From the IMG/VR virus record IMGVR_UViG_3300042309_000358, positions 1 to 40,662 of that record: a stretch of DNA of 40,662 bases; one strand, given 5' to 3'. The DNA comes from a virus. A model generated the notes under the pieces. The model had not been told where the DNA came from and did no database searches. It saw only the letters and a list, made by a program, of their open reading frames with translations. Made by a program: the position numbers and the translations under genes. Below are positions 4,006-39,206 of this stretch, in pieces. Positions within the stretch are counted from its first letter, which is position 1. Each line of letters opens with the position of its first letter.

Positions 4006-6519
4006 ATGAAATATTATACTAATGTTCAATCTTGGGGAAATACTTTATATGTTCGTTATGTTGAGGACAGGAAGCGAGAACAAGATAGGATAAATGATTT
4101 TCATCCTAGAATCTGGATTCCTGCCTCTTCACCAAATACAGTATCGGAATTTAAGAACTTAGATGAATATCCTGTTATTGAATTTGATGCTGGGAATGTA
4201 AAAGAAACAAGAGAATTTATCGCACGCAATAAGGATGTTGGTAATTTCTCAGTATATGGTAATATACAACCACAATATCAATGGATATCACAAAACACTA
4301 ACAGTGATATACAATGGAAAACCGAAGATATTGTGGTTGCATATATAGATATCGAATGTACTTGTGAGAATGGATTTCCTTCTATTTCAAATGCCATTGA
4401 AGAAATTAATGCCATTACAATTAAATTTTCTAATCTAGAGAAAAAGATTGTATTGGGATTTGATCATTTCACAGGAAATTTGACCGATGCGATATATCTT
4501 CCTTGTGAATCTGAAGAGATATTACTAGAGAAATTCTTGAAGGTTTGGAAATCGAATTATCCTGATGTTGTTTCGGGATGGCACGTTAAATTCTTCGATA
4601 TTCCCTATCTAATCAATAGAATTACACGTGTATTTGGTGAAGCCAAGGCAAAGAATCTTTCGCCATGGAAAATCTTACGTGAAGAGACTATTGAAATTAT
4701 GGGTAAGAAAGTCCAGACATATGATATGTTCGGTATCTCTGTTCTTGATTATCTAGATCTCTATAAGAAATTCACTTACTCTGCTCAGGAATCTTATAAA
4801 TTAGATTATATTGCTTCTGTTGAACTTGGTGAAAATAAATTAGATTATTCTGAGTATGGTTCTCTTCACCTTCTTTATAAAGAAGATTATAATAAATTTC
4901 TCGAATACAATGCGAAAGATGTGGATTTAGTTGTTTCTCTTGAAAATAAGATGAAATTAATCGAGTTGGCTATGACTATGGCTTATGACGCAAAAGTCAA
5001 TTTCGATGACGTATTCTCTCAAATTAGAATGTGGGATGTTATTATTTACAATCATCTACTTTCAAGAGGTTATGTTATTCCTGAAAGACAAGAATCAATT
5101 AAAGAAGAAATTGAAGGAGCTTATGTAAAAGAACCCAGACCTGGATTCTATAATTGGGTAGTTTCTTTCGATTTACAATCGCTGTACCCTCATCTTATTA
5201 TGGGCGGGAATTTTTCTCCGGACACAATTATAGATAAGATTATTCCTGGTATTTCTGTAGATAAATTGTTATCTAAGGAGATAGATCTATCAGATTTAAA
5301 GAAAAATAATTTCTCAATGTCTGCGACAGGACAATTGTATCGTAGAGATAAGGATGGATTTTTGACACAGCTCATGTCCTGGATGTTCGAACAACGTAAG
5401 ATTTATAAGTCAAAAATGATTCAAGCGGAAAAAGATTTAGAATCCGCAAATAAGACTGGTGAAGATACTAAGCAAATTCTGAATGATATCTCAAAGTATA
5501 AGAATCTGCAGATGGCTAAGAAGATTGCATTGAATTCAGCTTATGGTGCAATTGCCAATAGATATTTTAGATTCTCAGATAAGAGAATTGCAGAATCAAT
5601 TACTGTATCTGGCCAATTGGCTATTCGTTGGGTTTCTAATAGATTGAATGGATATCTAAGAAATATATTAAAAACGAATAAAGATTATGTTATCGCAATA
5701 GATACGGACTCGGCATATTTAGATCTTCAAGATCTAGTAAACAAATTCTTTCCCAATAAGACTAACGAACAGACAGTTGATCTTCTAGATAAAATATGCA
5801 AAGAACAACTTCAGAAAATAATTAATGATTCTTATGAAGATCTAGCTGATTATCTAAATTCATACTCACAGAAAATGATTATGAAGAGAGAATCGATCGC
5901 CGATCGTGGTATTTGGACGGCAAAGAAAAGATATATGTTAAATGTTTATGATTCAGAAGGAGTAAGATATTCAGAACCAAAAATGAAAATCATGGGTATT
6001 GAAGCTGTTAAATCTTCAACTCCAAAATTTTGTCGTGGTAAAATTAAAGAAGCAATTAAAATTATCATGAAATCGAATGAGTCTGATTTGCGTGAATATA
6101 TTGATAATGTAAAAAAAGAATTTCTTTCGCTTTCTCCAGAAGATATTGCATTTCCCAGAGGTGTTAATAATCTAAAAACATATTCATCTAATATTTCTAT
6201 CTATACAAAAGGAACTCCAATACATGTAAGAGGTTCACTTGTTTACAACAATCTCTTGAAAAAGAATGATCTTCTAAAGAAGTATACTGAGATCCACGAA
6301 GGAGAAAAGATTAAATTCTTGTATCTTAAAGAACCGAATATGATTCGAGAGAATATAATTTCTTTCAATTCAATTCTTCCTCCGGAACTTAACTTACATG
6401 AATTTATAGATTACAATTTACAATTTCACAAGACTTTTATAGAACCTATTTCTACTATTTTAGATGCAATTTCTTGGTCATTAGAAAACAAATCAACTCT
6501 TGATTCGTTTTTCGACTAA
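4006..6519 (+). CDS. 43: Family B replicative DNA polymerase (T4 gp43-like)
   Basis: 837 residues (T4 gp43 has 898). The 3'-5' exonuclease motifs are present: YIDIECTCENG (Exo I, about residue 112), GWHVKFFDIPYL (Exo II) and YNAKDVDL (Exo III). Polymerase motifs follow in order: A, SFDLQSLYPHL near 385; B, KKIALNSAYGAIANRY near 505; and C, AIDTDSAYL near 564. The thumb/palm segment has KKRYMLNVYD. This is the phage replicase, expected to work with a sliding clamp and the UvsX and helicase proteins encoded downstream. It has its own consensus promoter with the ATG at the predicted transcription start. All catalytic Asp/Glu residues appear intact. Confidence 0.97.
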   Translation: MKYYTNVQSWGNTLYVRYVEDRKREQDRINDFHPRIWIPASSPNTVSEFKNLDEYPVIEFDAGNVKETREFIARNKDVGNFSVYGNIQPQYQWISQNTNSDIQWKTEDIVVAYIDIECTCENGFPSISNAIEEINAITIKFSNLEKKIVLGFDHFTGNLTDAIYLPCESEEILLEKFLKVWKSNYPDVVSGWHVKFFDIPYLINRITRVFGEAKAKNLSPWKILREETIEIMGKKVQTYDMFGISVLDYLDLYKKFTYSAQESYKLDYIASVELGENKLDYSEYGSLHLLYKEDYNKFLEYNAKDVDLVVSLENKMKLIELAMTMAYDAKVNFDDVFSQIRMWDVIIYNHLLSRGYVIPERQESIKEEIEGAYVKEPRPGFYNWVVSFDLQSLYPHLIMGGNFSPDTIIDKIIPGISVDKLLSKEIDLSDLKKNNFSMSATGQLYRRDKDGFLTQLMSWMFEQRKIYKSKMIQAEKDLESANKTGEDTKQILNDISKYKNLQMAKKIALNSAYGAIANRYFRFSDKRIAESITVSGQLAIRWVSNRLNGYLRNILKTNKDYVIAIDTDSAYLDLQDLVNKFFPNKTNEQTVDLLDKICKEQLQKIINDSYEDLADYLNSYSQKMIMKRESIADRGIWTAKKRYMLNVYDSEGVRYSEPKMKIMGIEAVKSSTPKFCRGKIKEAIKIIMKSNESDLREYIDNVKKEFLSLSPEDIAFPRGVNNLKTYSSNISIYTKGTPIHVRGSLVYNNLLKKNDLLKKYTEIHEGEKIKFLYLKEPNMIRENIISFNSILPPELNLHEFIDYNLQFHKTFIEPISTILDAISWSLENKSTLDSFFD

Positions 6520-7977: not shown

Positions 7978-7983
7978 TGTAAT

Positions 7984-8190
7984 ATGATAAAGAAATCAAT
8001 TTACAAAAGAAATATTGGGTCTTGGTCTGGGTCTTGGTCTGGGTCTAGGTCTTGGTCTTGGTCTTGGTCTAGGTCTTGGTCTGGGTCTTGGTCTGGGTCT
8101 AGGTCTTGGTCTTGGTCTAGGTCTAGGTCTAGGTCTGGGTCTGGGTCTGGGTCTGGGTCTTGGTCTGGGTCTTGGTCTGGGTCTAACTAA
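7984..8190 (+). CDS. Ser-X dipeptide repeat ORF A
   Basis: 68 residues: a basic N terminus (MIKKSIYKRNIG) then alternating Ser and Trp/Gly/Arg, ending in GSN. It is encoded by a GGTCTN hexanucleotide array in which N is T, G or A. The ATG is 6 nt after a -10 box. The same N terminus recurs at 8195, 34748, 34995 and 35185. Whether it is translated is unproven; function unknown. The other open frame, (Gly-Leu)n, has no ATG start in this copy. Confidence 0.5.
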   Translation: MIKKSIYKRNIGSWSGSWSGSRSWSWSWSRSWSGSWSGSRSWSWSRSRSRSGSGSGSGSWSGSWSGSN

Positions 8191-8337
8191 AAATATGATA
8201 AAGAAATCAATTTACAAAAGAAATATTGGGTCTTGGTCTAGGTCTGGGTCTAGGTCTAGGTCTGGGTCTTGGTCTAGGTCTGAGTCTAGGTCTGAGTCTT
8301 GGTCTAGGTCTAGGTCTAGGTCTTGGTCTAGGTCTGG
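8018..8337 (+). repeat. GGTCTN hexanucleotide arrays (two blocks)
   Basis: Two tandem arrays (about 8018-8187 and 8230-8337) of GGTCTN, with N almost always T, G or A and never C. They are separated by a conserved segment holding a stop codon, an ATG and a MIKKSIYKRN coding sequence. A few units are GAGTCT. The first array contains higher-order repeats of the same N-pattern. The same arrays occur in the opposite orientation at 34.5-35.2 kb. Confidence 0.95.
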
Positions 8338-15653: not shown

Positions 15654-16118
15654 ATGACTAAGAATGAATTTATTGCAAAGATTAATGAATTTAAGGTAAT
15701 TCGTGACGAACATATGAAGATGTTACGAGATAACGCAAAGAGTGTATTTGGTGATATCACAAAAGATATCTTCAATGACAATCCACAATTGAATTCATTT
15801 TCTTGGAATCAATATACACCTTATTTCAATGATGGTGACACTTGTGTATTTGGTGTTAATCGAGATTATTATAGATTCAATAACTCTTGTGATCATGTTG
15901 ATAACTGGACTTTGAATAACGAACAATATAGTAAAGAGATTGATCTTGAAGATCTTTCTTTCGATTCGATCGATTCAATAAAGAAGGCATATAATGAAGT
16001 AGACGAACTTCTATCTATGTTTGAAGATGAAGATCTTCGTCAAATGTTTGGTGATCACGCAGAGATTACTGTATATCGTAATGGTCAAATTGATGTGGAT
16101 GAATATTCACACGATTAA
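15654..16118 (+). CDS. Unknown acidic phage protein
   Basis: 154 residues. ATG 15654 was chosen (GAGGA upstream) over an in-frame TTG. The protein is acidic, with NRDYYRFNNSCDHVDNW near 66 and a C-terminal EITVYRNGQIDVDEYSHD that looks like a beta-hairpin. I recognise no function. Its end overlaps the start of the release-factor-like gene by 20 nt. Confidence 0.6.
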   Translation: MTKNEFIAKINEFKVIRDEHMKMLRDNAKSVFGDITKDIFNDNPQLNSFSWNQYTPYFNDGDTCVFGVNRDYYRFNNSCDHVDNWTLNNEQYSKEIDLEDLSFDSIDSIKKAYNEVDELLSMFEDEDLRQMFGDHAEITVYRNGQIDVDEYSHD

Positions 16119-16500
16119 CACACAGTGTACATTTGAATATTTCCTGACACCAGATCAAAAATTGAATGAGAATCCAGCTGGTGTCAGGTTAATACATTTA
16201 ACAACGGGTCTTGTTATAGATTCGTTTTCTACCAAAAATAGAATTACAAATAAGAATATTGCTATTGAGGAATTAGAAAAGAATATGGGCATTTTCAGTG
16301 AAACGGCAGAAGAGATGGTTTGGGAAACACAAGATACGATCATCAAACAAATCAAACAATCTATTCGTCAAGTTAAAAAACAATTAGCACATATTAAGAA
16401 ACATCCATCTGGTGATGATTTATATGATTTGGGATTTATTAAAGGGTTAGAAACTTGTATTGATGAATTGGAACAGATCAAAGATAAAATAAATGAATAA
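16099..16500 (+). CDS. Release-factor (RF-1 domain)-like protein lacking GGQ
   Basis: 133 residues. GVRLIHLTTGLVIDSFSTKN and the following NRITNKNIAIEELEK align by eye with the RF1/RF2/ArfB core just after GGQ (E. coli RF1 has IRITHLPTGIVVEC and NKAKAL). Here the expected GGQ position is occupied by LNENPAG, so peptidyl hydrolysis is unlikely. The C-terminal half (WETQDTIIKQIKQSIRQ and beyond) is a helical extension. Start ATG 16099; an in-frame ATG at 16093 is also possible. It lies immediately upstream of the tmRNA locus, suggesting a role in termination or rescue. Alternative: a degenerate, unrelated fold. Confidence 0.5.
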   Translation: MNIHTINTQCTFEYFLTPDQKLNENPAGVRLIHLTTGLVIDSFSTKNRITNKNIAIEELEKNMGIFSETAEEMVWETQDTIIKQIKQSIRQVKKQLAHIKKHPSGDDLYDLGFIKGLETCIDELEQIKDKINE

Positions 16501-31094: not shown

Positions 31095-31127
31095 AAAAAA
31101 TGAAACGGGAGATTTTACTCTCCCGTT
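31094..31127 (-). terminator. Rho-independent terminator
   Basis: Minus strand AACGGGAGA/TCTCCCGTT stem (31119-31127 and 31104-31112) followed by TCATTTTTTT. It overlaps the last codons of the amber-containing gene. Confidence 0.8.
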
Positions 31128-31369
31128 ATATAAGCATTATCTAGATAGTCTATTGTCAAAGTACAATTTTTGATTTTGATAGATCCTTTTGTATGAGGAT
31201 TATCAGGAGTTTCTTTTGTGCTCCATGGTAGAGCACAATCTACATGCTTCACATAATAAGTTTCACCTTTTGCTTTGATCGACCACATTGGAATGGAAGG
31301 ATCTTCAAGATGTTTCTTATTGAAGTGAAAAATCAAATATTCACACTTAATTTTAGTCTTCTATGTCAT
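31115..31369 (-). CDS. Small conserved phage protein with in-frame amber codon at position 3
   Basis: The frame starting at ATG 31369, after AGAGGAA at 31373-31379, reads Met-Thr-TAG, then KTKIKCEYLIFHFNKKHLED and on to the stop at 31115. The body (IPMWSIKAKGETYYVKHVDC, STKETPDNPHTKGSI) belongs to a phage family of unknown function whose members, as I recall, also begin close to a KxKxKCEYL segment. Without suppression, translation would have to start at a TTG at 31336, which has no ribosome-binding site. A candidate suppressor tRNA (CUA) lies 17 nt upstream on the same strand. Recent nonsense mutation is the alternative. Confidence 0.7.
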
Positions 31370-31386
31370 ATATTCCTCTTTTAATT

Positions 31387-31461
31387 TGGTGCGCTTGGAG
31401 AGAATCGAACTCTCATCTCGAAGGTTTAGAATCTTCTACATTACCATTATGCTACAAGCGC
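31387..31461 (-). tRNA. Candidate amber-suppressor tRNA (anticodon CUA)
   Basis: 75 nt including an encoded CCA. The 7-bp acceptor stem (GCGCTTG/CAAGCGC) is perfect, with A73. The D-arm is GCAT-AATGGTA-ATGT and the T-arm GAGAG-TTCGATT-CTCTC is canonical. The anticodon arm is GAAGA-TTCTAAA-CCTTC, which puts CUA at positions 34-36 with U33 and A37; one A31-C39 mismatch closes the loop. Shifting the loop to read UCU (Arg) destroys the stem. It lies between rIIB and the amber-interrupted gene. The amino acid inserted cannot be inferred. Confidence 0.75.
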
Positions 31462-31469
31462 AATATCTT

Positions 31470-32231
31470 TTACCCAACTTCAATCCAGATACCAATACCA
31501 TTATCTTGTACTGGCTCTTGGAAAGCATCCTTAGGATTCGTTTCGGCTCCAAGTTCTCCGATAACTTCATAACGGCAGCATCGACCCTTAGAATCATTAT
31601 AATCTGCAGGAATTGAAACCACATCACGTGGATTAATCTTCAAGATCATAATTCGTTCACCAGAGAAATGCTTTAGATATTCTTCAGAACAGAAATGTAA
31701 ACCGCTGGAACAAGTTCGATCCTTGTCGTCGTCTACTTTATTTCGTTCCATCTGAACGATCTTGCCTACTGAATTATCGAATGTTCCGCTATGTACGTCT
31801 TTATAATCAGAACGGACACGCTTGTAAGCAAGGAAACAACCATCTGAAGTAATAGGCATTTTCCCCTTTTCCAAGAAACCATACAGTTCGTTAACTGCAC
31901 GCTTCGATGGATTCTTCATTAGATTCTCCATAAATAGAACCATCGGTTCAATTGGAAATCCTTCTTGGAACATAGAAACAATCTTATCTGATAAATAATT
32001 AGTGAACTCCTCATCCTTCCAGAAGATCTTGTCACCTTGGATTGAGATATTCCCAGCACCATACTTCAGAATGGCTTTCTTTGGTTCAATGAGATCCTTC
32101 ACAGTATCCCAATCGCTTGTCTTGATGGCATCTACAATCTTGTTATAAGAAAGATGTTGTTTGTTGATTGTATGAGTCTTCGACCCAATCACAATAATAA
32201 TGTTAGAACCTTGAATTAAGTAAGGGAACAT
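31470..32231 (-). CDS. rIIB: rIIB-like protein
   Basis: 253 residues (T4 rIIB has 312). The conserved middle is clear: IEPKKAILKYGAGNISIQGD near 48, PMVLFMENLMKNPSKRAVNE near 95, and LAYKRVRSDYKDVHSGTFDN near 132. TCSSGLHFCSEEYL and VVSIPADYND follow. With rIIA it affects lysis timing and exclusion in T4; the mechanism is unresolved. Its start overlaps the end of rIIA by 16 nt. Confidence 0.9.
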   Translation of the reverse strand: MFPYLIQGSNIIIVIGSKTHTINKQHLSYNKIVDAIKTSDWDTVKDLIEPKKAILKYGAGNISIQGDKIFWKDEEFTNYLSDKIVSMFQEGFPIEPMVLFMENLMKNPSKRAVNELYGFLEKGKMPITSDGCFLAYKRVRSDYKDVHSGTFDNSVGKIVQMERNKVDDDKDRTCSSGLHFCSEEYLKHFSGERIMILKINPRDVVSIPADYNDSKGRCCRYEVIGELGAETNPKDAFQEPVQDNGIGIWIEVG

Positions 32232-34441
32232 GTTAACTCCTTTTTCTGATCGTCAATTAAATTAATGTATCCTGCAAATACATCATATCTATTTTTGTCT
32301 GTTTCAAACAAATAAGAATCAATATCAACCATATAACGTAATAATGGATATCTATTTAAAATTGTTTGCACTTTAGTTTCTGCCGCCAACTGGAATTCCT
32401 TTAATTCTTTATAGATATTATCGTTGGAATATATATTCGCCAACATCATATAGGAATTAATTGAACCTGGTTTGTTGTTTTTCGAATTATTTGTTATATT
32501 GAATTCTTGAACAACTTTCTTGAATGGAGAATTATCATTCAATTTATCCAATATATTTTTATTATACTTGAATTTATTGATGCAGTCAATATTCAAATCT
32601 GCATAAATTCGATTCTTAATGGATTCTTTTTCGGATTGTAATTTATCGATAATAACACGTTCAATATTTATCCAATTTGGATAATTCGAAAGTGATTCAA
32701 TATCCCCTTTTCTGATTCCATAAATAGTCATACGTGAACCAATCGGTCCAAAAAAACCACATTCTTTCAATAATTTATAGACTCCTTTAAAGTCAGTAGT
32801 GTAATTTGAAATAACATTATACCCAGAAAGAGGAATATAATACATGGTATTCGTCGTGTTATTTAGATCTTGTAATTTACCACATTCTTTCCAAGTATAA
32901 TTTGGATTGTAATATTTTCTATTATCTTCTTGTATTTTAACAACTGTTACATCTTTGGTTCTCTTTTTCTTTTCCAATTCCGGAAGGGTAGAAACATTTA
33001 TGATAATATCATCTGGTGGATTACTTATTGACTTGAAGAATTCTTCAAGATTCATATCTTTATCTTTATCGATTTTCTGTAAAAGGATAAATTTCTTTAT
33101 CTTGTGTCCTGTTTCTAGATTATCGATATATCGTTTACATCTTTCTCCAGCACCAATAGTCGTATCATTAATAATGAACTTGTATTTTGAACATGTTTGA
33201 TACATATTAATGCCAGAGTTATTTAGATCATATCTTCTAGTTCTTCCAGAATACGAATCCTTTTCGAAAGAATTAATTGAAATATTGAATTCAGAACACT
33301 TTTCTCGCGAAATAGAAATTACATTGTAATAGATTTCATGTAAATTATTGTATTTGTTAATTGCGACAACATTTAAGTTATTATTATTTACATATTCTGT
33401 CACAGTCATCTTCCAAATAGGAAGAGAATTTTTATTAACTAAGAAATCTGCAAGAAACCAAGAATTATGATTGTGTTGTTTAGCTTGTTCATCTAGAATA
33501 CAGTACAATGAATCACTTAACTTTTGAAGTTTATTCTTGATTGAAGAAATAGTCAACGGAGTGTAAGCCAAACCTTCTCGAGAAGCTTGGAAATCTAATT
33601 CTCCAATATTGAATTCCATTACAAGATTATTGGATAGTAAAGAATGCAGTTTATCCGTTAAATTCGTTTTTGCGTTTGGAACATCAATAGGATAACAGAT
33701 ATTTCCCATCAGAGCTTTACTAGTACCATAACCTCTTGTAGATAATACATGAATTCCTGGTATGATATTCTGTTCTTCGTAATTCTTTTCTCTTTTAACG
33801 ACGTAATCGAAAGATAATGTATACTCTCTATTACCGGAGATATTTGGTTGTGTCTCGAACCAGATAAATACGTTAGGAGCTTCTGTGACAAACTTAACGA
33901 TATCGTCTTGGTTATCTACTGAAAATTTAATCTCAACGCCGTTCGGTTCTGTCGTATCAGAAACTCCCATAGACGCAATGGAAGGGATGCCATGTTCATT
34001 CACGAACGCACTAAAAATCCAACACTTACCGTTCTTAATCGTAGTGATGCTGAAGTTTTCAGTATAACTGAATGGTGATTTGGAACCAAGTCCAAGTGCA
34101 CCAACGAATTCATTCGAATGCGTTTTCGTTGATTCGAAATAAGTTGTATAGATAGATTTCACTTGTGTGTCATCTAGACCAGTTCCATAATCACGAATAG
34201 AGAACCATGGTTCAATACGATTAGGAAGGTGTACGTCAAACGGAATATCCTTCTTTCCTGCTGCCACATGCGAATCATAAGCATTACAAGAAAGTTCTCG
34301 AATAATCGCTTTAATCTTATTTGCATATAAACCAGAACTTAAAATCGAGAATGCTTTCGAAGAATTCTTGATTTTAAATTCATCTGTTCTATCAATAGAA
34401 GAAAGAACAACATTATTATCAGGAGAATGTGAAATAATCAT
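32216..34441 (-). CDS. rIIA: rIIA-like GHKL ATPase protein
   Basis: 741 residues (T4 rIIA has 725). The N-terminal GHKL ATP-binding fold has RELSCNAYDSH (N-box, near residue 48), RDYGTGLDD (G1, near 82) and GALGLGSKSPF (G2, near 112). The rest is the family's membrane-associated C-terminal part. The ATG follows AAGG; a TATAAT box and a TTGTATACAA palindrome (operator-like) lie about 30 nt upstream. Confidence 0.9.
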   Translation of the reverse strand: MIISHSPDNNVVLSSIDRTDEFKIKNSSKAFSILSSGLYANKIKAIIRELSCNAYDSHVAAGKKDIPFDVHLPNRIEPWFSIRDYGTGLDDTQVKSIYTTYFESTKTHSNEFVGALGLGSKSPFSYTENFSITTIKNGKCWIFSAFVNEHGIPSIASMGVSDTTEPNGVEIKFSVDNQDDIVKFVTEAPNVFIWFETQPNISGNREYTLSFDYVVKREKNYEEQNIIPGIHVLSTRGYGTSKALMGNICYPIDVPNAKTNLTDKLHSLLSNNLVMEFNIGELDFQASREGLAYTPLTISSIKNKLQKLSDSLYCILDEQAKQHNHNSWFLADFLVNKNSLPIWKMTVTEYVNNNNLNVVAINKYNNLHEIYYNVISISREKCSEFNISINSFEKDSYSGRTRRYDLNNSGINMYQTCSKYKFIINDTTIGAGERCKRYIDNLETGHKIKKFILLQKIDKDKDMNLEEFFKSISNPPDDIIINVSTLPELEKKKRTKDVTVVKIQEDNRKYYNPNYTWKECGKLQDLNNTTNTMYYIPLSGYNVISNYTTDFKGVYKLLKECGFFGPIGSRMTIYGIRKGDIESLSNYPNWINIERVIIDKLQSEKESIKNRIYADLNIDCINKFKYNKNILDKLNDNSPFKKVVQEFNITNNSKNNKPGSINSYMMLANIYSNDNIYKELKEFQLAAETKVQTILNRYPLLRYMVDIDSYLFETDKNRYDVFAGYINLIDDQKKELTCSLT

Positions 34442-34523
34442 TATTAATAACCTTGTCAGTTGTATACAATTATACTACATTGATCAAATAATTCTTTTGT
34501 AAATTGATTTCTTTATCATATTT

Positions 34524-34748
34524 TTAGTTAGACCCAGACCTAGACCCAGACCTAGACCTAGACCAAGACCCAGACTCAGACCCAGACCAAGACCAAGACC
34601 CAGACCCAGACCAAGACCTAGACCCAGACCAAGACTCAGACCAAGACCAAGACCAAGACCAAGACCCAGACTCAGACCAAGACCTAGACCCAGACTCAGA
34701 CCCAGACCTAGACCAAATAATTCTTTTGTAAATTGATTTCTTTATCAT
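34524..34748 (-). CDS. Ser-X dipeptide repeat ORF (minus copy 3)
   Basis: 74 residues: MIKKSIYKRIIW, then Ser alternating with Arg, Gly, Glu and Trp, ending GSN. It follows the stop of the previous repeat ORF by 4 nt (TAA-AAAT-ATG). It has the same architecture as the ORFs at 7984 and 8195, in inverted orientation. Translation is unproven. Confidence 0.45.
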   Translation of the reverse strand: MIKKSIYKRIIWSRSGSESGSRSWSESGSWSWSWSWSESWSGSRSWSGSGSWSWSGSESGSWSRSRSGSRSGSN

Positions 34749-35156
34749 ATTTTTAGTTAGACCCAGACCTAAACCTAAACCTAGACCTAGACCCAGACCT
34801 AAACCTAGACCTAGACCTAGACCCAGACCCAGACCTAGACCAAGACTCAGACCAAGACCTAGACCAAGACCCAGACTCAGACCTAGACTCAGACCCAGAC
34901 CAAGACCAAGACTCAGACCTAGACTCAGACCCAGACCTAGACCCAGACCTAGACCAAGACCCAATATTTCTTTTGTAAATTGATTTCTTTATCATATTTT
35001 TAGTTAGACCTAGACCAAGACCAAGACCCAGACCCAGACCCAGACCTAGACTCAGACCTAGACCTAGACTCAGACCTAGACCTAGACTCAGACCAAGACC
35101 CAGACCAAGACCCAGACCAAGACCAAGACCTAGACCCAGACCAAGACCTAGACCCA
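34528..35156 (-). repeat. GGTCTN hexanucleotide arrays, inverted copy (three blocks)
   Basis: Three arrays (about 34528-34713, 34759-34967 and 35008-35156), read as GGTCTN on the minus strand, separated by a conserved segment of about 45 nt that encodes MIKKSIYKRN. Units vary at N (T, G, A) with occasional GAGTCT and GGTTTA. They are inverted relative to the arrays at 8.0-8.3 kb. Confidence 0.95.
34753..34995 (-). CDS. Ser-X dipeptide repeat ORF (minus copy 2)
   Basis: 80 residues with the MIKKSIYKRNIG head and a Ser-X body that includes three Phe substitutions from GGTTTA units. In the (Gly-Leu) frame those same changes are silent, so the DNA alone does not settle which frame is selected. 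Confidence 0.45.
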   Translation of the reverse strand: MIKKSIYKRNIGSWSRSGSRSGSESRSESWSWSGSESRSESGSWSRSWSESWSRSGSGSRSRSRFRSGSRSRFRFRSGSN

Positions 35157-38701: not shown

Positions 38702-39206
38702 TGTAATCAAACCTCCAACTAAGTTGACTGCAAAGCACCTTGAAAATATCACCATCTTTCTTGGTGGATCTATTGAGATGGGTATCGCTGATAATTGGCA
38801 AGACCGTGTAATCCAACATCTATCTCTTCATGAAGATGTTGTTGTTATGAATCCCCGTCGTGATGACTGGGATTCATCCTGGAGGCAGCATCCGGATGAT
38901 CCAAGATTTCACGAACAAGTGATGTGGGAATTGCGGTGTCAAGAAAATTCAGATATTAACTGTTATTATTTTGATCCGAATACTAAATCTCCTATTACGT
39001 TACTAGAATTAGGCTTATTCGGAAGATCGATCGGTAAATCCGGTCGAAAAACGATTGTGTATTGTACAGAAGATTTTTGGAGATATGGTAATGTCAAGAT
39101 GGTGTGTGATTATCTAAATGTCAAGATTGCGAGTAATTGGTTCGAATTCTTGAAAGAGATTGACGACTCGATCTACCGAACAAAATTAAAATATTTTAAT
39201 TTTTGA
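38694..39206 (+). CDS. Nucleoside 2-deoxyribosyltransferase-like protein
   Basis: 170 residues. ATG 38694 overlaps the end of the PRPP synthetase gene. IFLGGSIEMGIADNWQDRV near 18, VVMNPRRDDWDSSW near 45, and CYYFDPNTKSPITLLELGLFG near 87 match the nucleoside 2-deoxyribosyltransferase-like family (PF15891 type), with the catalytic Glu in the LLELG helix. It probably salvages or rearranges nucleosides, or removes bases from nucleotides in NAD metabolism; the substrate is unknown. Confidence 0.8.
   Translation: MFNVIKPPTKLTAKHLENITIFLGGSIEMGIADNWQDRVIQHLSLHEDVVVMNPRRDDWDSSWRQHPDDPRFHEQVMWELRCQENSDINCYYFDPNTKSPITLLELGLFGRSIGKSGRKTIVYCTEDFWRYGNVKMVCDYLNVKIASNWFEFLKEIDDSIYRTKLKYFNF

Follow-up and report, generated by a model that had tools for sequence, protein, structure and literature searches.

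In large phages, the modules of a protein family that is otherwise unnamed, labelled here FHFN after its motif FHFNKKHLED, carry an in-frame stop codon close to the start of a reading frame together with a phage tRNA whose anticodon matches that stop. Comparison between phages shows this gate, the matching tRNA, their co-variation and their restriction to the module. It is very likely that the stop is read by the phage suppressor tRNA; readthrough and charging of the tRNA are inferred, and there are no protein, ribosome-profiling or reporter data. One such module lies in a stretch of viral DNA of 40,662 nucleotides, referred to as the window, for which the original prediction had proposed a self-contained recoding unit consisting of a CUA tRNA and a gene with an early amber codon.

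Layout of the locus in the window

A single tRNA was called by ARAGORN in the window, with anticodon CUA, at 31387–31461 on the minus strand. It matches Rfam RF00005 with 64 bits (E 2e-15), has its CCA encoded and contains an A31.C39 mismatch in the anticodon stem. The minus strand behind it reads ...GCGCACCA-AATTAAAAGAGGAATAT-ATG-ACA-TAG-AAG ACT AAA..., with the ATG at 31369–31367 and the TAG at 31363–31361. The spacer between tRNA and ATG is 17 nt long and contains a Shine-Dalgarno-like AGAGGAA (31373–31379, minus); the amber gate ATG-ACA-TAG itself (31361–31369, minus) is kept by relatives. Past the TAG, the frame stays open through to a TAA at 31117–31115 and encodes an FHFN domain protein of 81 codons (KTKIKCEYLIFHFNKKHLEDPSIPMW..., 31115–31360, minus), and a strong terminator-like hairpin, AACGGGAGAGTAAAATCTCCCGTT with a T run (31104–31127, minus), closes the unit. 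Directly upstream of the tRNA, with 8 bases between its stop codon and the tRNA, lies a rIIB-like gene (31470–32231, minus; PHROG 609, E 1.7e-83), which is overlapped by a rIIA-like gene (32216–34441, minus; PHROG 612, E 5e-124). The tRNA and the gated gene thus follow one another on the same strand, with a single terminator, and would probably share one transcript (rIIA-rIIB-tRNA-FHFN-terminator).

A second contig of 89 kb (L002) has the same TAG and tRNA and is 99.9% identical to the window over 8.5 kb, with identity falling to 96% beyond. The window TAG is therefore not a sequencing error, and the gate recurs in hundreds of further contigs, which excludes chance. The alignment of the two contigs also revealed similar blocks (85–88%) in opposite orientation at about 34485–35156 and at 7981–8337 of the window. 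At one contig end, 93–2651 on the plus strand encodes an 852-aa outer-membrane beta-barrel or TonB-receptor-like protein (PF25183, 434 bits), which is unusual for a phage, and this stretch is possibly host-derived or chimeric.

Direct gates in the FHFN family

The family was assembled from 225 phage loci, gathered in a search with the post-TAG sequence, in two further searches and from isolates, which gave 132 distinct sequences (70-residue cores) in 58 clusters at 80% identity. As the first query held only the sequence after the TAG, this search was not biased towards TAG; it matched 80 phage contigs, 77 of which had an in-frame TAG soon after an ATG preceded by a Shine-Dalgarno sequence. In the whole set, 115 of the 132 distinct sequences have an in-frame TAG 1–9 codons past the ATG and directly before the conserved protein (ATG, 0–8 further codons, TAG, I/V-E-x-x-C...FHFNKKHLED). 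The stop is codon 3 in 87 of these 115 direct cases, and the frame before and after it is identical in all of them. The codons before the stop are variable (TCA, GCA, ACA, TCG, AAA and others), but the TAG is constant.

An explanation without readthrough would regard the two-codon reading frame as a minigene or leader, with translation restarting at the codon after the TAG or further in. ATT, a rare start codon, does follow the TAG in 84 of 115 direct cases, and in 68 of 115 at least one ATG, GTG or TTG lies past the TAG but ahead of the motif. However, AAA, AAG, ACT or AAC follows in 10 cases, the window included, and the Shine-Dalgarno spacing suits the upstream ATG. A restart would also leave the linked suppressor tRNA and the switch to TGA and UCA described below unexplained, so that this alternative is very unlikely. 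Relatives starting at the TTG (31336 in the window) would likewise have refuted the original prediction, but most of them carry TAG as codon 3, and in 47 of 115 the stretch from the TAG to the motif lacks ATG, GTG and TTG altogether.

A or G follows the gate in 115 of 115 direct cases, whereas the commonest base behind a natural TAG stop is T (p 8e-17 for A). A U in this +4 position is known to lower readthrough (PMC5289835). The purine at the gate is partly due to the conserved next codon (Ile). Within 120 nt upstream, the late-promoter core TAAATA was found in 63 of 115 direct cases compared with about 7% expected, which could fit late expression, though this was judged by motif only.

Reassignment of TAG throughout the genome (code 15), caught by chance at one gene, was considered as well, since TAG-recoding phages with CUA tRNAs are known (PMC13037316; PMC10607447). 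It is all but excluded, because these genomes use TAG as a normal stop and no second gated gene proved to be conserved. With a simple gene caller, TAG ends 8 of 43 genes in the window, for which the original prediction had given at least five such genes and inferred that recoding is not global, and it ends 58 of 1047 genes in seven contigs (about 1.8 Mb) plus the window. In the same seven contigs and the window, the FHFN gene is nearly the sole reading frame per genome behind a leader of Shine-Dalgarno sequence, ATG and stop. Backup stops behind natural TAG stops were not enriched, and the cost of a suppressor tRNA reading these stops, itself inferred, is not explained by the switch model. A partial scan of the database for one form of the gate yielded at least 22 reading frames of at least 50 codons, of which 16 were FHFN, one PTH2 (peptidyl-tRNA hydrolase), one a homing endonuclease and four chance-like.

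The clearest second gated reading frame is homing-endonuclease-like with NUMOD3; in one contig, its insertion site is the gate itself. Such NUMOD3-containing frames (MA-TAG-IEYS...) were observed at 5417–6082 of contig L387 and at 38815–39474 of contig G005, where they end at the TAG of the FHFN gate; thus, the position of the mobile gene coincides with the gate. In the window, a further gated candidate (16003–16500) was dropped, as its start lies inside the upstream gene. A weak RF-1 (release factor) domain match is found at 16021–16500 on the plus strand (E 1.4e-6, below the curated cut-off), and a GGQ motif is absent from the matched part.

Little can be said about the protein itself. No convincing match was obtained in Pfam, PHROGs or PDB sequences, and the family was not found in the cellular genomes searched. 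The window protein is predicted with confidence to be all-beta (pLDDT 89.8). This model gave no match to PDB folds at E ≤ 0.001 and only weak ones above it, such as the C-terminal part of BipA (E 0.03); from a viral fold library came one family member and some small phage proteins similar to a portion of the model. A second domain of about 100 residues occurs in most relatives but not in the window copy, and in one contig (L061) an apparent second copy of the C-terminal domain lies downstream of the gene in a different frame. Residues from about 25 to 50 (PMW...GxTYYVNH...PW) resemble a WW-domain pattern; profile matches to NEDD4-type WW domains were not significant (E 0.2). In Rhizobium phage RHph_I1_18, the gated gene is unannotated, because gene callers stop at the TAG.

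Suppressor tRNAs and relocated gates

Taking whole contigs, a matching tRNA was present for 108 of 115 direct and 14 of 17 relocated gates, about 122 of 132 in total; this count includes two contigs (L276 and L310) in which the match was not verified base by base. About 10 gated contigs have no matching tRNA in the available sequence; most of them are short, and one has 150 kb. A scanner run over the 225 loci found a CTA tRNA in 169, and no TCA or TTA tRNAs. In contig L018, the tRNA is located about 50 kb from the gated gene.

Alignment of 43 distinct CUA tRNAs close to the FHFN gene showed strong covariation of the stems, with 92.5% of stem cells paired and none of 500 shuffles as high. The anticodon is invariant, and the 7-base loop YTCTAAA occurs in 40 of 43. 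Pair 31-39 is non-Watson-Crick in 34 of 43 suppressor tRNAs versus 24 of 355 other tRNAs from the same loci (p 2e-25). Since the cloverleaf is ordinary, the label Pyl that ARAGORN gives rests on the anticodon alone; an aberrant tRNA-Pyl fold together with PylRS would mark a pyrrolysine system. Acceptor stems vary between clades, and the isotype could not be derived from the nearest tRNA body, which was uninformative. A covariance model recovered additional CUA tRNAs that ARAGORN had missed (among them those of L003, L029, L034 and L059) or labelled Arg (the upstream suppressor-like tRNAs of L005, L006 and L010, called Arg(TCT)). Thus, phage suppressor tRNAs are probably undercounted.

In the remaining 17 of 132 sequences, FHFN starts without a stop and the gate sits elsewhere in the module: 14 gates are on a co-operonic PTH2 and three on a leader reading frame before a terminator. 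Nine sequences forming one clade (L299 to L321) have the gate on the PTH2 gene that immediately precedes FHFN (MT-TAG-INNQKLRVV in L299); for one member, L310, which is nearly identical to L309, it was not read directly. In L066 and L323, the gated gene is PTH2-like and the first of three. Sinorhizobium phage Phosso (MKY-TAG-VEEKLR) and L319 have an amber gate on PTH2, and their FHFN is fused to another domain. Agrobacterium phage Atu_ph07 has a TGA gate on PTH2 (MIGEHF-TGA-INYEELG). Read from after the stop, the PTH2 assignments (PF01981) are supported with E 3e-20 for Phosso, 2e-20 for Atu_ph07 and 3e-7 for L307, and only weakly for L066 (E 0.016). The window module contains no PTH2. Amber leaders were also noticed on the PTH2 of L349 (LR756500; MK-TAG-INNHK) and L324 (MKS-TAG-NAEKTW), so PTH2 gates are perhaps wider than the FHFN family; the PTH2 of phage XacN1 was rejected as a gated gene, as no gate is present. 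On the family tree, the position of the gate requires about seven changes.

In L053, L061 and L251, an amber leader frame is followed by a terminator hairpin (-17 to -21 kcal/mol) and then the gene. Readthrough would take the ribosome across this hairpin. These three cases are weaker, L061 being the weakest, and remain no more than a possibility, as they were found by hand after the fact. L053 has an additional TAG between its two domains.

A role of the inserted residue, with the tRNA placing a particular amino acid near the N-terminus, would agree with the nearly fixed position of the stop directly before the conserved domain (115 of 132). Against it, the gate relocates to other genes and to leaders, the residues before the stop vary (S, A, T, K, QQ) and so do the acceptor stems of the tRNAs by clade. 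This explanation is considered very unlikely.

The stop and the anticodon change together. Atu_ph07, with its TGA gate, encodes a tRNA with anticodon UCA (430713–430787), also with a C.A mismatch at 31-39, which had been reported earlier without a specific target (PMC6102473), whereas the related Phosso combines a TAG gate with a CUA tRNA. Though only one case, this pairing of TGA/UCA against TAG/CUA is the strongest single argument for decoding, and likewise for the view that the gate depends neither on one given release factor nor on one given stop.

In summary of the original prediction, the CUA tRNA, the ATG-ACA-TAG frame after AGAGGAA with its positions and the conserved phage protein right after the TAG were all confirmed. 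The proposal of a self-contained recoding unit withstood each of the objections it had raised, including another isotype of the tRNA, since ARAGORN and structure agree on CUA. It needed correction in three respects: the gate belongs to phage modules throughout the family and is not confined to a single locus; the stop can be opal, with a UCA tRNA; and PTH2 or a leader can carry the gate in place of FHFN. Synthesis of the protein only after the tRNA has accumulated is still an inference.

Proposed switch and related systems

In the favoured model, ribosomes would end after a very short peptide as long as charged suppressor tRNA is lacking. As the tRNA accumulates, some ribosomes would insert an amino acid at the stop and go on to complete the protein. 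In phages other than that of the window, the gated gene often lies behind a T4-type late promoter motif, with the tRNA upstream or in a tRNA array. Output would require both the mRNA and accumulated charged tRNA, that is, a coherent feed-forward switch, and the module would therefore be off under leaky or early transcription. This purpose is favoured only by a narrow margin, with the timing inferred and promoters judged by motif. Because the gated FHFN gene occurs alone or in an operon with PTH2, its product probably acts on translation; this is a likely but inferred role for a protein without recognisable family or fold.

The main rival is a sensor instead of a timer, which differs in purpose alone, as the gate would operate alike. 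Here, the gate would report the state of suppressor tRNA or of termination, for example tRNA cleavage by host defences, low charging or a shortage of release factor, and the module would respond, e.g., by clearing peptidyl-tRNA. The sharing of the gate with PTH2 in several lineages and the RF-1 domain match in a window reading frame speak for it, and its logic resembles the autoregulation of release factor 2. However, amber and opal gates interchange. Since no single bacterial release factor recognises both of these stops, the gate is unlikely to sense a specific one, and direct evidence for a stress signal is missing. A sensor is possible.

Returning to the feed-forward switch, several known systems are related. 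In code 15 crAss-like and huge phages, a phage-borne CUA tRNA reads TAG as an amino acid, as is inferred for the FHFN module, but there many genes have internal TAGs, whereas in FHFN phages TAG is a stop and only one module has one early stop. Borges et al. 2022 reportedly proposed a link of phage TAG recoding to the timing of late genes. Release factor 2 (prfB) uses an early in-frame stop as a control point. It does so by a +1 frameshift without a suppressor tRNA, whereas the FHFN gate keeps the frame, thus not meeting the criterion of a programmed frameshift of this type (product in the other frame), and has its tRNA encoded. In pyrrolysine and selenocysteine decoding, a dedicated tRNA reads a stop codon in few genes. 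There, a special residue is placed inside enzymes, whereas the FHFN gate is in the first codons and moves between genes. Also related is a synthetic feed-forward 'leak dampener', in which an early stop, amber or opal, is opened by a co-regulated suppressor tRNA; in mutagenic genes, amber codons directly followed the start codon (PMC7969014). That circuit was engineered in E. coli; the FHFN gate occurs in nature, is carried and conserved by phages and comes with a tRNA family of its own. A single-module stop gate was not found described in the open-access literature searched, with subscription papers and preprints outside this search.

The jumbo phages XacN1, RsoM2USA and Atu_ph07 have the same kind of suppressor tRNA, and Atu_ph07 belongs to the FHFN family. 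Their papers named no specific target, and an in silico readthrough search for targets of jumbo-phage suppressor tRNAs found none (PMC5852040); the gated PTH2 described here is the likely target in Atu_ph07. Thus, suppressor tRNAs of standard-code jumbo phages, which had no known target, now have a specific and conserved one. In a bolder reading, which is likely to be correct, this is a natural kind of switch, its pair kept across about 60 lineages, with a gate that is mobile and changes from amber to opal with the anticodon; that it also acts on a transcription terminator in some phages is conceivable. The finding suggests that evolution built a tRNA feed-forward circuit of the kind synthetic biologists designed, provides a natural set of matched stop and suppressor pairs and draws attention to a phage protein of uncharacterised function with a link to peptidyl-tRNA hydrolase. 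The gate is present in cultured phages, so the idea can be tested directly.
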